DNA from: a virus
Direction: 5' to 3' (one strand)
IMG/VR virus record: IMGVR_UViG_3300043567_000531
Span: 1-25,549 of that record
DNA: 25,549 nucleotides
Below the pieces are notes generated by a model. That model had not been told where the DNA came from. It ran no database searches and saw only the letters and a program-made list of their open reading frames with translations. Made by a program: the position numbers and the translations under genes. Positions 20,277 through 23,975 of this stretch are shown here, one piece after another (position 1 is the first letter of the stretch; each line of letters opens with the position of its first letter).

Positions 20277-20773
20277 TACTCTCACAAGGTTGCAACCCTT
20301 GAATCACACAAGCTTTAGGAAATAACTCCGACTTTAGTGCAATATGTAAATAGTCATTATGTAAAGAGGACTACCTGCAATTGGATGAGAGTAAATAAAC
20401 CACAAGTCAACCTCTGCTTTACAGAATGAGAGGTTATGCCTGAAACCTTGTGGTAAATACAAAAGAAACAGTTGTGTTTATAACGGTAGAAGACTATGCT
20501 TCTACATTCTTGCAATAAGCCATCTTTAGCCCTTGCTCACCAAGTTCATGGACATTATAAAGACATTTCCACATCTTTATACATTCACAACTGTTTCTAT
20601 ATATGACCGGTTTTTATAAAGATCCGGAAGATATTACTGTCCAACTCTAACTAATATATAATAGTAATAATATATAGTAATAGTAATAAGTTAGTTTAGT
20701 AACAGTCTGTGTGCTAAACAAGGTAGTTCTAGCCATATATATTAATATTGAGCTTAGTTCTAGATTGTTAGCT
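20277..20773. other. non-coding region of tiled stem-closed elements
   Basis: Five paired units lie almost end to end with no gene: 20277-20393 (tactctca/tgagagta), 20399-20454 (accacaag/cttgtggt with an inner AACCTC/GAGGTT), 20464-20598 (13-bp arms agaaacagttgtg/cacaactgtttct, inner 7-bp hairpin GTAGAAG/CTTCTAC), 20636-20706 (ACTGT/ACAGT with inner CTAACT/AGTTAG) and 20713-20772 (gctaa/ttagc type). This suggests a string of folded small RNAs or a structured replication or packaging site. The transcribed strand is not known. Confidence 0.6.
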
Positions 20774-20986
20774 TTTACTTTTACTAATGTGACCGTGGGT
20801 AGTGTAACACCCATTTTAACACTCTCTCACACATTTTTCTATACTAATCCTGCACATATTATATACTCAGAGTCAGAATGATTCCCGGGCTAGTATGCAT
20901 ATAGTGTGTATTGTAGTGTAAACAGCCATAATAGTACTTACTATTCCTACTTGACCGGATCATTCCACGCTATCTTCCCCACTCCC

Positions 20987-20997
20987 TTATGAGTGGA
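20987..20997 (-). promoter_or_regulatory. variant of the early promoter-like element
   Basis: The string TCCACTCATAA (minus strand) matches the copy at 21582-21592 and differs from the TCCACTTTTAA type in the TTT positions. It faces the structured non-coding region and could drive its transcription. Inference only. Confidence 0.4.
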
Positions 20998-21027
20998 GAT
21001 AAGCCTGCGAAGCACAAAGAAAAAAAC

Positions 21028-21064
21028 CATGGTTAACTATTTAATATCATGGTTAACTATTTAA
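21028..21064. repeat. tandem 17-bp repeat CATGGTTAACTATTTAA
   Basis: Two identical 17-base copies at 21028-21044 and 21048-21064. A related string ccatggttaacatttaa occurs at 21627 and a shorter one (ccatggttaa) near 22027, each next to a promoter-like element. Confidence 0.8.
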
Positions 21065-21113
21065 ATGAAGCTACTATACCTACTATAGGTTAAGTAATCA
21101 AGCTGAATAAAAA

Positions 21114-21145
21114 AAGAACACCCTGTATTTCTACAGAGTGCTCTT
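21114..21145 (-). terminator. strong GAAA-tetraloop terminator
   Basis: On the minus strand a 14-pair stem (with wobbles) closes a GAAA loop and is followed by a run of seven Ts. It ends the transcript of the 130-residue gene. Confidence 0.9.
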
Positions 21146-21152
21146 AATTACC

Positions 21153-21545
21153 TTACTTCTTAGGTACCTTGTTGAAGTCTTGGATAACTCCTGCTGTTTG
21201 GAAGTCTTCCATATTCAAGCCTAAGTCAGCTAAGCTAGCTTCAGTACCTCTTGCTAAGTGACTCATAATAAACAACGGTTTACTACCTGCACTAGCAATA
21301 ATCTTTGTAAGATAGCTAACTCCCTTTTCAACACCATAATCAGCATTGCCTTTGTATAGCAATGCAGGTACAGATTGTTGATTACCCAATGCATTCTCAA
21401 ACTTAATAGTAACGGGATAAAACTCATTACCATTCTTGTTTGCAATTGGGTTGCTACCTTGAGATACCAATTCCGCAGTAATAGATGCTACTAATACTGT
21501 GTCTCCTGCCGGTGTTGTTTCCGGCTTAAATTCAATTTTGCTCAT
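21153..21545 (-). CDS. conserved phage protein, monocistronic (130 aa)
   Basis: The protein starts MSKIEFKPETTPAGDTVLVA and contains SQGSNPIANKNGNEFYPVTI, an AL[L/V]YKGNADYGVEKG segment and FIMSHLARGTEASLADLGL. I associate this block order with a family frequent in crAss-like phages. It is mostly beta, compatible with an OB-like or small beta-barrel fold, and could be an abundant DNA-binding protein. It has its own leader and the strongest terminator of the window, both suggesting high expression. Function not proven. Confidence 0.75.
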   Translation of the reverse strand: MSKIEFKPETTPAGDTVLVASITAELVSQGSNPIANKNGNEFYPVTIKFENALGNQQSVPALLYKGNADYGVEKGVSYLTKIIASAGSKPLFIMSHLARGTEASLADLGLNMEDFQTAGVIQDFNKVPKK

Positions 21546-21581
21546 AATGCTAAAATTTAAAAGGTTAATAATCCCCCTCTA

Positions 21582-21592
21582 TTATGAGTGGA
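21582..21592 (-). promoter_or_regulatory. early promoter-like element (TCCACTCATAA)
   Basis: Lies 36 bases before the ATG at 21545 and is identical in core to 20987-20997. Its T-rich 5' flank merges with the T-run of the hairpin at 21601-21617. Confidence 0.45.
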
Positions 21593-21600
21593 AAAAAGCC

Positions 21601-21617
21601 TTGTTGCGGAGCAACAA
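21601..21617 (-). terminator. hairpin with T-run between gene units
   Basis: TTGTTGC pairs with GCAACAA across a 3-base loop, followed on the minus strand by GGCTTTTTTCC. It could stop transcripts coming from upstream. Confidence 0.55.
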
Positions 21618-21650
21618 CAAAGACACCATGGTTAACATTTAAAAACACAA

Positions 21651-21668
21651 AGGGGCTTTTACACCCCT
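21651..21668 (-). terminator. hairpin terminator after the 102-residue gene
   Basis: On the minus strand AGGGG pairs with CCCCT (extended by a T-G wobble), followed by TTGTGTTTTT. It lies six bases after the stop of the gene at 21674. Confidence 0.65.
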
Positions 21669-21673
21669 ATAAG

Positions 21674-21982
21674 TTAAAAAGGATTTGTGTCCTCCTCTTC
21701 CTCTTCTACTATAACAGCATATCCACATCCATAAGGTGTGTCAACAATAGTAAATTTAGGATAAATTTTACTATAAGGTTTATCATAGCTCAAACACTTT
21801 TCATACAGATATTTTAATCTATCCTTTTGTGAATAGTCAGGTCTTAAATATTTACTCCATTCAAGCAAAGCAAACAAGTGTGCCTCTGCTGTGAAGTCTT
21901 CAAAACCTTCAATTTTTATCTGATAAGTAGAAATGATAGAACTTAACTTGCCTTCAATCAGGATACCATTAATTGTTTTCAT
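21674..21982 (-). CDS. hypothetical protein, one-gene unit (102 aa)
   Basis: The protein starts MKTINGILIEGKLSSIISTY and has a helical middle with ALLEWSKYLRPDYSQKDRLK. The beta-rich end KFTIVDTPYGCGYAVIVEEE leads to an acidic tail. No known family. It has its own promoter-like element 27 bases before the ATG (22010-22020) and a terminator after it, so it appears independently expressed, probably early. Confidence 0.7.
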   Translation of the reverse strand: MKTINGILIEGKLSSIISTYQIKIEGFEDFTAEAHLFALLEWSKYLRPDYSQKDRLKYLYEKCLSYDKPYSKIYPKFTIVDTPYGCGYAVIVEEEEEDTNPF

Positions 21983-22009
21983 ATATTATAGTTTTAAAAT
22001 TACAAACAA

Positions 22010-22020
22010 TTAAAAGTGGA
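22010..22020 (-). promoter_or_regulatory. early promoter-like element (TCCACTTTTAA)
   Basis: Minus-strand TCCACTTTTAA lies 27 bases before the ATG at 21982. It is one of seven near-identical copies found only before the small one-gene units. Confidence 0.6.
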
Positions 22021-22049
22021 AAACACCATGGTTAAAATGAAAGAAAGCT

Positions 22050-22280
22050 AAGACTAGTGGCGCAGCCACACATATAAGAATGAATGCTTGGCAAGCCAAG
22101 ATATGTCATTAGCTTTGTAATGACATGACTTGGTGCGCTAGGTGTGTGGCAAAGGACAAAGTGCCGAAGAATGAGGCTGCTTGTCCTGTGTGATGTGTGA
22201 TGGAGGAAGGCCAAAGTCTGAACGGTAGTGAAGGCTTGGTCTGTGCGGTGGAAAATACTGTGGTTAAGTATCTATATATC
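22050..22280. other. GC-richer non-coding region with cloverleaf-like folding
   Basis: No gene is credible. An 8-bp arm pair GCCACACA/TGTGTGGC (22065-22072, 22143-22150) encloses hairpins at 22087-22100 (CTTGG/CCAAG) and 22103-22126 (9 bp). A separate stem AGGACAA/TTGTCCT lies at 22153-22187. The layout recalls a three-armed RNA of about 86 bases, but tRNA consensus positions are missing on both strands. Which strand is transcribed is unknown. Confidence 0.5.
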
Positions 22281-22288
22281 AAAGTAAT

Positions 22289-22315
22289 AAAGCACCACAT
22301 TTAAAGTGATGCTTT
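22289..22315 (-). terminator. hairpin terminator after the 22-residue ORF
   Basis: A 10-pair stem AAAGCATCAC/GTGGTGCTTT with one wobble closes a 7-base loop and is followed by ATTACTTTG on the minus strand. It lies just behind the stop at 22320. Confidence 0.65.
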
Positions 22316-22319
22316 AATC

Positions 22320-22388
22320 TCATGCATTAGGGTTTAATACCCATTCCTTAACGGTAACAATCCCGTTGATAATTACATAACTTACCAT
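22320..22388 (-). CDS. 22-residue microprotein with own control signals
   Basis: The frame reads MVSYVIINGIVTVKEWVLNP and ends NA before TGA. A promoter-like element lies 29 bases before the ATG (22418-22427) and a terminator five bases after the stop, exactly as for the larger one-gene units. This strongly suggests a real short gene. The peptide is a small beta-hairpin-like hydrophobic sequence with no signal peptide. Function unknown. Confidence 0.55.
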   Translation of the reverse strand: MVSYVIINGIVTVKEWVLNPNA

Positions 22389-22417
22389 GGTATATAGATT
22401 TAGAATTTACAATTAAT

Positions 22418-22427
22418 TTAAAGTGGA
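22418..22427 (-). promoter_or_regulatory. early promoter-like element (TCCACTTTAA)
   Basis: One base shorter than the other copies in the T-run. It lies 29 bases before the ATG of the 22-residue ORF and directly after a terminator. Confidence 0.55.
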
Positions 22428-22433
22428 GAAAAA

Positions 22434-22456
22434 CTAAGAGCTTATTCAGCTCTCAG
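22434..22456 (-). terminator. hairpin terminator overlapping the stop codon
   Basis: CTGAGAGCT pairs with AGCTCTTAG around a 5-base loop and is followed by TTTTT on the minus strand. The loop region includes the TAA of the gene at 22442. Confidence 0.75.
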
Positions 22457-22618
22457 TCTTGTCCAATCTTCATCACCAAGTACATATATCTCAGTGATCT
22501 TACTAGTAGAGTCCAAGACTACTATCATCTTGTCTTCAAACTCTATTACAGTTTTGTCAGCTTGATTAGTGACAACAGGTGTTCCCCACAAAGTAAGGAT
22601 TAATGCTAATGTATTCAT
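22442..22618 (-). CDS. small exported protein, paralogue of 18197-18469 (58 aa)
   Basis: The protein starts MNTLALILTLWGTPVVTNQA, a short hydrophobic leader that may be a signal peptide. It continues with a beta-rich domain ending ITEIYVLGDEDWTRLRAE. The VLxDEDWxxL end matches the secreted 90-residue protein at 18197. An element 21 bases before the ATG and a terminator overlapping the stop define a one-gene unit. Two related envelope proteins under different control suggest duplication. Confidence 0.7.
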   Translation of the reverse strand: MNTLALILTLWGTPVVTNQADKTVIEFEDKMIVVLDSTSKITEIYVLGDEDWTRLRAE

Positions 22619-22639
22619 AGTATATTAATTTAGTTTAGA

Positions 22640-22650
22640 TTAAAAGTGGA
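22640..22650 (-). promoter_or_regulatory. early promoter-like element (TCCACTTTTAA)
   Basis: Lies 21 bases before the ATG at 22618. Its T-rich 5' flank follows the terminator at 22660-22680. Confidence 0.6.
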
Positions 22651-22659
22651 GAAATAATA

Positions 22660-22680
22660 AAGGGAGTTAATAACCCCCTT
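22660..22680 (-). terminator. hairpin terminator overlapping the stop codon
   Basis: AAGGGGGTT pairs with AACTCCCTT (one wobble) around a 3-base loop, followed by TATTATTT on the minus strand. The stop of the gene at 22667 lies in the stem. Confidence 0.65.
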
Positions 22681-22858
22681 CATTCATTTGGTTTTCAGCT
22701 TGACTTACTAAGCTTTCAATACCTTCTTGAACATGTGCTCTATAAGCCTTCAAGTCAGACAGCTCACATCTCTGCTCATAGCTGTTAACATTCTTTTCTA
22801 ATAAAGCAATCTCTTTGTCTAGTCTTTCAGCCAATTCAAATAGTTCTTTTGATTCCAT
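22667..22858 (-). CDS. coiled-coil microprotein (63 aa)
   Basis: The protein starts MESKELFELAERLDKEIALL and continues as a Glu/Leu-rich amphipathic helix ending NQMNEGGY. The regular heptad-like spacing of Leu and Ile suggests a coiled coil that binds another protein. It has its own element (22884-22894) 25 bases before the ATG and a terminator over its stop. Such tiny acidic early proteins often bind host factors, but that is only inference. Confidence 0.7.
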   Translation of the reverse strand: MESKELFELAERLDKEIALLEKNVNSYEQRCELSDLKAYRAHVQEGIESLVSQAENQMNEGGY

Positions 22859-22883
22859 AATATATAATTTTAATTAGTTACAT

Positions 22884-22894
22884 TTAAAAGTGGA
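22884..22894 (-). promoter_or_regulatory. early promoter-like element (TCCACTTTTAA)
   Basis: Lies 25 bases before the ATG at 22858, next to the terminator at 22903-22922. Confidence 0.6.
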
Positions 22895-22902
22895 AAATAA
22901 TA

Positions 22903-22922
22903 AAGGGGAATTACTCCCCCTT
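22903..22922 (-). terminator. GNRA-type hairpin terminator overlapping the stop codon
   Basis: AAGGGGGA pairs with TTCCCCTT (one wobble) around a GTAA loop, followed by TATTATTTT on the minus strand. The stop TAA of the gene at 22911 lies in the loop and stem. Confidence 0.7.
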
Positions 22923-23129
22923 ATCTGCATCTGTTACTTTGTCTTCCAAAGTTTCATCATACTCAAATGTTCCGGTCTCTATATACTCTATGATCTCTGC
23001 CTTATAAGCATAATCAACAACCTTCCCATCAGGAAAGAATAGAGCATAAGTGTTTCTACCTTCAACATCATGTTGGTATATTACAGTCCCTGTAATTAGA
23101 TACCAAATAAAAATAATCTGTGCTATCAT
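22911..23129 (-). CDS. small membrane-anchored acidic protein (72 aa)
   Basis: The ATG at 23129 gives MIAQIIFIWYLITGTVIYQH, a membrane helix. A soluble part with NTYALFFPDGKVVDYAYKAE follows, with a very acidic end. I rejected the longer start at 23231, which would read through the promoter-like element and the previous gene's terminator. The element ends 23 bases before this ATG, in the usual range. The topology suggests a cytoplasmic acidic domain tethered to the membrane. Confidence 0.7.
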   Translation of the reverse strand: MIAQIIFIWYLITGTVIYQHDVEGRNTYALFFPDGKVVDYAYKAEIIEYIETGTFEYDETLEDKVTDADKGE

Positions 23130-23152
23130 ATAATTTAATTTATTATTATACA

Positions 23153-23163
23153 TTAAAAGTGGA
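23153..23163 (-). promoter_or_regulatory. early promoter-like element (TCCACTTTTAA)
   Basis: Lies 23 bases before the ATG at 23129. Confidence 0.6.
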
Positions 23164-23178
23164 AAAACAGTATGGGAA

Positions 23179-23201
23179 AAGAGAAGCTTAAAGCTTCCCT
23201 T
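23179..23201 (-). terminator. hairpin terminator overlapping the stop codon
   Basis: AAGGGAAGC pairs with GCTTCTCTT (one wobble) around TTTAA, followed by TTCCC and later TTTTT on the minus strand. The stop codon of the gene at 23188 is inside. Confidence 0.6.
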
Positions 23202-23379
23202 GTCTCCATTCATTGTGTAGAGTTCTTGCAATCATAAACATTGCAAATCCTGCTAATGACATGATAAATGCATTAGCAAACATGTTGGCAAATATGACAT
23301 AGTATGTAACACTTACCATACTGATGAGCACACATATATATGCTGCAATCATGTTGAATAACCCAAAGGCTTTTTTCAT
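23188..23379 (-). CDS. small two-pass membrane protein (63 aa)
   Basis: The protein starts MKKAFGLFNMIAAYICVLIS and contains two hydrophobic helices (about residues 5-28 and 32-52). It ends with the basic HNEWRQGKL, so it is probably a membrane hairpin with both ends in the cytoplasm. It forms a one-gene unit with an element 28 bases before the ATG and a terminator at its end. Possible roles include superinfection exclusion or membrane remodelling, not shown by the sequence. Confidence 0.7.
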   Translation of the reverse strand: MKKAFGLFNMIAAYICVLISMVSVTYYVIFANMFANAFIMSLAGFAMFMIARTLHNEWRQGKL

Positions 23380-23407
23380 AATATATATTTTAATTGGTTA
23401 CAATAGA

Positions 23408-23418
23408 TTAAAAGTGGA
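23408..23418 (-). promoter_or_regulatory. early promoter-like element (TCCACTTTTAA)
   Basis: Lies 28 bases before the ATG at 23379, after the terminator at 23426-23445. Confidence 0.6.
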
Positions 23419-23425
23419 AAAACAT

Positions 23426-23445
23426 AAAGGGGTATTACCCCCTTT
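23426..23445 (-). terminator. hairpin terminator overlapping the stop codon
   Basis: AAAGGGG pairs with CCCCTTT around GTAATA, followed by ATGTTTTT on the minus strand. It overlaps the TAA of the 47-residue gene. Confidence 0.7.
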
Positions 23446-23587
23446 AATCTTCACTCCAAAACTCACAAACAAAACACCCCATAACATCAATCCCACACTC
23501 TTCCTCTATCTCCCACACATCATTAACATAATATTTCTCTTTACTCAAAATACTATTATCATCCATTACAATTTTATTATACCACAT
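23444..23587 (-). CDS. acidic microprotein, outermost minus-strand gene (47 aa)
   Basis: The frame from the ATG at 23587 reads MWYNKIVMDDNSILSKEKYY and continues to an acidic end with two cysteines (GCFVCEFWSED). An element 31 bases before the ATG (23619-23629) and a terminator over the stop mark it as a one-gene unit, the first of the series from the divergent control region. The CFVC pair could bind a metal. No family recognised. Confidence 0.65.
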   Translation of the reverse strand: MWYNKIVMDDNSILSKEKYYVNDVWEIEEECGIDVMGCFVCEFWSED

Positions 23588-23618
23588 AGCTTTATTATTT
23601 AATTATTATTATTATCAT

Positions 23619-23629
23619 TTAAAAGTGGA
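23619..23629 (-). promoter_or_regulatory. early promoter-like element (TCCACTTTTAA)
   Basis: Lies 31 bases before the ATG at 23587. It is the outermost copy, at the edge of the divergent control region. Confidence 0.6.
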
Positions 23630-23975
23630 GATACACTATATACATATAATGTGTGTGCTTGCCTGCTTGCTAGATATATAACATGTTGGTTGAGATATCT
23701 CAGGAAGCATTGCTTATATATATCTATTACTAATACATACTATCTAACATATCTATTGATAACTATCATGCTACTACATACATATTTACCACAGATAAAA
23801 ATATATTATTGCATCTTGATTTGTTTTTGTCTGCCAATTCTTCACGGGGGGTACCACCAACTCCAGCTGAGGGTGGGGCGTTGTTATACATACCCCATCA
23901 CATTCTACTATATACAATGTCACCTCAATCTCTTGTATACTACATTCTTAATAACCCACATTCTAATTAAAGTTA
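23630..23975. other. gene-free divergent control region
   Basis: No gene is supported; frames here have unlikely composition. The stretch is AT-rich with TA-repeat tracts. A GC-rich island near 23845-23880 contains ggggggtaccacc and gggtgggg. It lies between the outermost minus-strand unit and the plus-strand RNA. An origin or a binding site is possible, but I see no specific iteron or known site. Confidence 0.4.

Follow-up and report, generated by a model that had tools for sequence, protein, structure and literature searches.

What reads the short DNA element that heads each of a chain of very small genes in the IMG/VR virus record IMGVR_UViG_3300043567_000531? The fragment analysed here, referred to as the window, covers 25.5 kb in IMG/VR (positions 1 to 25,549 of that record), and the array of one-gene units in question is read from its minus strand. 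Judging from comparison with related genomes, we consider it likely that the array is a set of early promoters, private to each phage lineage, that are read by an injected virion RNA polymerase (vRNAP) complex.

Nine copies of the element, hereafter the box, lie on the minus strand between positions 20987 and 23629 (table 1): six are exact copies of TCCACTTTTAA, one lacks a T and two are the variant TCCACTCATAA. All six exact copies fall within 22010-23629 and none occurs in the rest of the window, the chance count in 300 dinucleotide shuffles having a mean of 0.07 and a maximum of 2. A preliminary description of this locus had already recognised seven minus-strand copies, one of them without the T, and a variant before the ATG at 21545; all of these are confirmed, and the ninth copy was missed by it. 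Counted from the first base of the element, the ATG follows after 32-42 nucleotides (nt) in the seven main units and after 47 nt in the variant unit, which agrees with the earlier figure of 21-31 when that is counted from the element's end. The sizes of the open reading frames (ORFs) are also as claimed, six having 22-72 amino acids (aa) and the other two 102 and 130.

Every one of the eight ORFs is followed by a terminator-like hairpin, as had been proposed, and 14 terminator-like sites were found in 20900-23750 compared with 1.2 +/- 1.3 in shuffles. In a separate search, hairpins of -12.6 to -20.9 kcal/mol were obtained for all eight units, and 18% of shuffled gaps reached -8 kcal/mol. The claimed abutment of terminator and following element is borne out in units 1-5, in which the hairpin ends between -7 and +8 nt relative to that element, and in unit 7, where the element is reached via a second hairpin; it is not borne out in unit 6 (a gap of 267 nt) or unit 8 (116 nt). 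In units 1-5 the box stands at the end of the preceding transcript unit, and there is not much space for a second promoter ahead of the ATG.

To which phages does such an array belong? The window encodes a DnaB-like helicase, a primase, a Sak4-like protein and a DNA helicase, and over 500 relatives of its DnaB are present in IMG/VR. Two of the related genomes, G001 (118 kb) and G002 (107 kb), match the window's DnaB at 97-98% identity, and in them the region is syntenic with the window's, beside a divergently transcribed gene; their major capsid protein (MCP), portal and terminase match phage families. A homologous array is present throughout a clade of aquatic crAss-like phages.

The box itself differs from lineage to lineage. 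Exact TCCACTTTTAA was found as one stray copy in total in the 21 longest relatives first found, with none in G001 and G002, and this near-absence led to the discovery of other boxes there: in G002 the small genes are each preceded by TACAGCTTNNTACT, in G001 by AACATCTTNNTACT. Further arrays came from counting words de novo around a neighbouring marker gene in 80 contigs. Their words are TACCTCTT, ACAACTT, AACAGCTCA, TAACTGTG, CAACTTTAT, AACCTCTCA, GGCCGCTTTT, TCACCTTG, ATCCCCTTG, TACTTCTT, CTAGCCCT, GCTAACCC, CAACCCTT and CTTTWTAAG. At least 15 box types occur in about 36 contigs (e.g. TACAGCTT, AACATCTT, AACAGCTCA, TAACTGTG and CTAGCCCT), and inside any one phage the box is nearly invariant. 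It is about 8 nt long, with an ACT-like second box on its 3' side in most lineages, and the leader is AT-rich. TTTTCCACTTTTAAT, used as an IMG/VR search word, returned mostly lone chance matches, and a AAAGGTGG repeat in G036 was rejected as mostly coding sequence.

A motif search over the genomes of relatives, which the preliminary description had suggested, was run as a weight-matrix scan of eight near-complete genomes. The top 5-12 sites lie on one strand in one array of 2-3 kb, and in none of the eight are the boxes spread genome-wide. Six genomes show a clear drop in score after these sites (in G002, ten sites score 23.5-27.9 bits and the one after them 15.9); in G036 and G039 the drop is less sharp.

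The short and fixed spacing of the box, which across arrays lies about 30-48 nt before most start codons, is what would be expected if it acted in the mRNA as a start-associated, translational or stability signal and were no promoter at all. We regard this as very improbable. The box also heads units that contain no ORF, namely the last one in most arrays and, in G001, an internal one (44715), and such units fit a promoter better than a translation signal. The position of the box at the terminator end in units 1-5, and the way in which box similarity tracks the RNA polymerase (RNAP) block described below, also speak against an mRNA element.

If the box differs between phages and is uniform within them, how does it change? 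Orthologous genes bear the box of their own phage; the window's 22-aa and 72-aa genes have orthologues with other boxes, and the orthologues of ORF 2 in G001 and G002 are each preceded by the box of that phage. In orthologous pairs of different box type (n=61), mean identity is 52% in the box, 67% in the leader and 79% in the first 90 nt of the ORF, whereas the corresponding values for pairs of the same type (n=25) are 94%, 91% and 88%. Between contigs L278 and L301 (types K and L), the leaders of three orthologous pairs are 94-100% and the ORFs 90-100% identical, and an identical single-base difference separates the boxes of all three pairs (TCACCTTG versus TCCCCTTG), the other units being equally uniform. 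Between the TAACTGTG phages (type G) and types K and L, leaders are 88-100% and boxes 50-62% identical. No longer K- or L-type contigs containing RNAP were found. The unusual part is the extent and speed of this concerted change among close relatives.

Sequence comparison shows that the relatives of the window phage have giant proteins homologous to the virion RNA polymerase of phi14:2, whose crystal structure is known. They were recognised through direct comparison with phi14:2 and through a profile search: a 3829-aa protein matches phi14:2 gp077 (E=9e-18 over 1168 aa, with DFDVD kept), and a profile of ten relatives retrieves PDB entry 6vr4, 'DNA-dependent RNA polymerase' (E=9.1e-25). The DxDxD catalytic motif appears as KSGGDFDVDK in G001 and as KSGADFDVDK in G002. 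Searches of the giant ORFs against PHROGs and Pfam detected LysM alone, and a single-sequence PDB search with a giant ORF gave no match. In crAss001, RNAP cargo proteins are carried in the virion (PMC10172136). The giant cargo/RNAP block of G001 (80059-117546) is 33-55% identical to that of G002, other core genes reaching 96-98%; the block may be an exchanged module or may have evolved much faster than the backbone.

The association between box and polymerase was assessed in 12 related genomes that have both an array and RNAP, by comparing the similarity of consensus boxes, set by hand, with the amino-acid identity of 22 gene families. The correlation is highest in the giant block, at 0.78 for a 1943-aa ORF that neighbours RNAP, 0.73 for RNAP itself and 0.70 for another neighbour, a 2267-aa ORF, and likewise for the portal (0.71); it is 0.33 for MCP, 0.26 for TerL and 0.27 for the backbone. 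The partial correlation of RNAP given the backbone is 0.71, that of the backbone given RNAP -0.07. In G001 and G002, TerL, MCP, DNA polymerase and DnaB are 96-98% identical, RNAP is 50% identical and the boxes differ; G002 and G058 have the same box, and their RNAPs are 87% identical. Phages with CCC-type boxes (G043, G064, G067 and G073) fall into one RNAP group, and the two with CTTTATAA-like boxes (G036 and G039) into another.

These comparisons bear on the possibility that the boxes are promoters of the host RNA polymerase with a host sigma factor or activator, differing as the host factors differ. It has in its favour that crassviruses infect Bacteroidota and that their later genes probably use the host RNAP (PMC8375218). 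Nevertheless, G001 and G002 have unlike boxes at 96-98% likeness of core gene residues, the presumed tail/receptor genes (1883, 697 and 582 aa in G001, presumed by position) correlate weakly with the box (r ~0.2), and a TATATRGCTA word just past the array is nearly constant across these lineages. The primary-sigma consensus of Bacteroidota consists of TTTG at -33 and TAnnTTTG at -7. Of six arrays scanned, five have no occurrence of this consensus and the remaining array has one; sigma-70-like sites are no more frequent than in shuffles. Host promoters are thus an unlikely explanation. The preliminary description had offered an early-gene array under a dedicated polymerase or, alternatively, a factor-dependent host start; comparison favours the former, because the boxes are exclusive to the array, private to the lineage and follow the vRNAP block, and lends no support to the latter. 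A T7-type single-subunit RNAP (PF00940) was detected in none of the 12 genomes, a search in which control genomes were equally silent.

Could the boxes instead be operators on overlapping promoters, bound by a regulator of the phage? Such a regulator might be injected and distinct from RNAP, perhaps a co-packaged neighbour, or it might be a repressor or activator made early. Repressor-operator pairs of temperate phages also diversify in concert, and the box correlation of the 1943-aa neighbour is slightly above that of RNAP (0.78 versus 0.73), two points in favour of this reading. However, the surroundings of the boxes yielded no conserved promoter distinct from them, the interval from terminator to ATG offers little space for one, and Sigma70 r2/r4 domains, readily found in positive controls, are present in none of the 12 genomes. 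A repressor on every early gene is also hard to square with a lytic life style, and we therefore hold out little probability for this reading.

In the explanation that we favour, that of promoters read by the injected vRNAP complex, each unit would start with its own promoter, which contains a lineage-specific box, and continue with an AT-rich leader, then either a very small early gene or a non-coding unit, and finally an intrinsic terminator. The reader would most likely be the giant virion RNA polymerase, the partner proteins packaged with it, or both, entering together with the injected DNA, and this complex would read the box and transcribe each early gene up to its own terminator. A shift in specificity would have to be matched in every box, and it is because one reader would serve about 5-12 promoters that the box would be uniform within a phage and different between phages. 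The proposal that the injected complex reads the box draws, besides the position of the box and the ORF-less units, on two lines of background: early transcription of phi14:2 is rifampicin-resistant, which has been ascribed to vRNAP (review PMC10136315), and the RNAP of crAss001 is virion-borne. The phages of this clade resemble phi14:2 (6vr4) also in that their homologous DxDxD polymerase has giant ORFs beside it, like the co-packaged proteins of phi14:2 and crAss001. On this reading the genes would be early: the array opens a gene module, a position as in phi14:2, and the 130-aa protein weakly resembles gp129 of that phage (E=1e-5, compared with this one sequence). What the sequences show directly is the layout of the array, its restriction to one place, the concerted box differences and the link with the RNAP block; promoter function, the identity of the reader and early timing are inferred from them.

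Several points weigh against this explanation. First, the association is correlational, drawn from 12 related genomes and hand-set consensus boxes, and when three near-duplicates are dropped the correlation of RNAP falls to 0.47 (backbone 0.01). Second, the G040 RNAP is 72% identical to that of G002 and its box is quite different, and the G059 RNAP is 59% identical to that of G002, yet G059 has the TACAGCTT box as in G002; overall RNAP identity is therefore an imperfect predictor of the box. Third, the 1943-aa ORF, slightly above RNAP, and the portal correlate too, so that RNAP is one of several candidate readers in the block; the crAss001 portal binds a cargo protein (PMC10172136). Fourth, the window and L219/L220 combine TCCACTTTTAA with TCCACTCATAA, which L225 has in all units, and these mixed arrays indicate that exact matching need not hold. 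Fifth, the window phage's own RNAP would lie off the contig; G001 and G002, whose DnaB is 97-98% identical to the window's, encode the enzyme. Finally, no repeated box array was detected in phi14:2, crAss001 (80-102.7 kb) or the gut genomes cr10_1, cr52_1 and cr125_1, by a method that recovers 7 of 9 arrays of this clade and misses short CCC-type arrays, so that absence is not proven.

Table 1. Features of the array in the window.
Feature	Position	Strand	Remark
Element 1, TCCACTTTTAA	23619-23629	-	ATG 42 nt from first base
ORF 1, 47 aa	23444-23587	-	L225 homologue also has TCCACTCATAA element 5'
Terminator-like hairpin, unit 1	23425-23446	-	overlaps ORF 1 stop
Element 2, TCCACTTTTAA	23408-23418	-	
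ORF 2, 63 aa (MKKAFGLFN...)	23188-23379	-	2TM-like match weak, under cut-off
Terminator-like hairpin, unit 2	23172-23209	-	
Element 3, TCCACTTTTAA	23153-23163	-	
ORF 3, 72 aa (MIAQIIFIWYL...)	22911-23129	-	G002 DNA 93-94% identical, box there different
Terminator-like hairpin, unit 3	22900-22924	-	
Element 4, TCCACTTTTAA	22884-22894	-	
ORF 4, 63 aa	22667-22858	-	
Terminator-like hairpin, unit 4	22657-22683	-	
Element 5, TCCACTTTTAA	22640-22650	-	
ORF 5, 58 aa	22442-22618	-	
Terminator-like hairpin, unit 5	22434-22456	-	CTGAGAGC..GCTCTTAG and T-run
Element 6, TCCACTTTAA	22418-22427	-	one T fewer
ORF 6, 22 aa (MVSYVIINGIVTVKEWVLNPNA)	22320-22388	-	kept in G001, G002, L222, L225, L226, L227, L246, each with own box
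Terminator-like hairpin, unit 6	22288-22316	-	then 267 nt without clear gene
Element 7, TCCACTTTTAA	22010-22020	-	
ORF 7, 102 aa	21674-21982	-	
Terminator-like hairpin, unit 7	21651-21668	-	
Second hairpin	21599-21622	-	abuts element 8
Element 8, variant TCCACTCATAA	21582-21592	-	L225: same variant in all units
ORF 8, 130 aa	21153-21545	-	weak similarity to phi14:2 gp129
Terminator-like hairpin, unit 8	21114-21145	-	
Element 9, TCCACTCATAA	20987-20997	-	heads ~250-300 nt without clear gene

A terminal unit without a clear gene, such as that behind element 9, is a feature of most arrays. Inverted repeats are present in 22020-22287, between the unit 6 terminator and element 7, and the region between the divergent gene blocks (about 23640-23900) is non-coding, partly conserved in G002 and contains CTGAGATATCTCA; an origin or a regulatory region is possible there. 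The array proteins gave no significant family in PHROGs and Pfam, no tRNAs were found, and the region has no match among named phages at the nucleotide level. Rfam searches of the window and of the array regions of G001 and G002 gave no match at gathering scores.

Further observations concern the arrays of the relatives. In most lineages a TATATAGCTA / ATATATGGCTA word lies about 180-360 nt past the last element (window 20730-20740 on the minus strand, G001 46489, G002 3238, G040 22512, G043 87707 and G073 40410); unlike the box it is nearly invariant, and it is perhaps a start for the next gene block. A second repeat, the 13-nt TAAATCAGAATAG, is start-associated: in G002 (104546-106109; L218) six consecutive small genes each have it about 1 base ahead of their ATG, where it mostly overlaps the preceding stop, and a similar word occurs in L161 (30-701). 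The internal unit of G001 at 44736-45020 (L209 4736-5020) spans about 300 nt and has an element and a terminator-like end, with no ORF at the expected place; it may encode a structured RNA, and Rfam gave no match. Past the array of the same genome, beyond some 700 nt that hold no clear gene, 46960-49143 (L209 6960-9143) encodes a DUF2828/DUF7788 protein. As crAss001 has a TROVE-domain early gene, a Y-like RNA beside the G001 protein is conceivable.

How does this array compare with known systems? Phage polymerases with private promoters, as in T7-like phages, and a vRNAP promoter motif, as in P23-45, are already known. T7-like promoters serve phage-specific later genes. T7-like RNAPs and their promoters are phage-specific and mutually exclusive despite promoter similarity (PMC10138996); the RNAP fold is a different one, and the change of the box between close relatives is larger and faster here. 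In the Thermus phage P23-45, a repeated AT-rich motif before pre-early genes is read by an injected, tail-borne two-barrel vRNAP, and relatives without that RNAP are also without the motif (PMC10770324). The combination of a repeated early motif with an injected RNAP is shared with our array, but the RNAP-bearing relatives of P23-45 retain a similar motif, whereas near relatives of the window phage diverge. The SAS/ESAS of cluster K mycobacteriophages is a short repeat before many small genes, and the ESAS consensus varies by subcluster (PMC3203893). SAS lies immediately 5' of the starts, whereas the window element lies 21-36 nt 5' of them, at the terminator junction, and the box here also heads ORF-less units. 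In the open-access literature searched, no early-promoter motif or array was found for crAss-like phages and their giant virion RNA polymerases.

What, then, does a regulatory word mean that is altered at many sites together between near-identical phages? The finding raises the question of the driving force. Tentatively, and as a possibility to which we would give less than even weight, the box could be a fast-evolving private key, the injected polymerase and the whole set of early promoters co-diversifying under selection into mutually exclusive pairs; candidate selective causes are, for example, denying early transcription to the polymerases of co-infecting relatives, or escaping a box-binding protein of the host or of a rival. 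The arrays supply a concrete set of some 15 natural promoter types with about 5-12 repeats each, together with 12 matching RNAP sequences, by which promoter recognition in this RNAP family becomes directly testable and which could yield mutually exclusive polymerase-promoter pairs.

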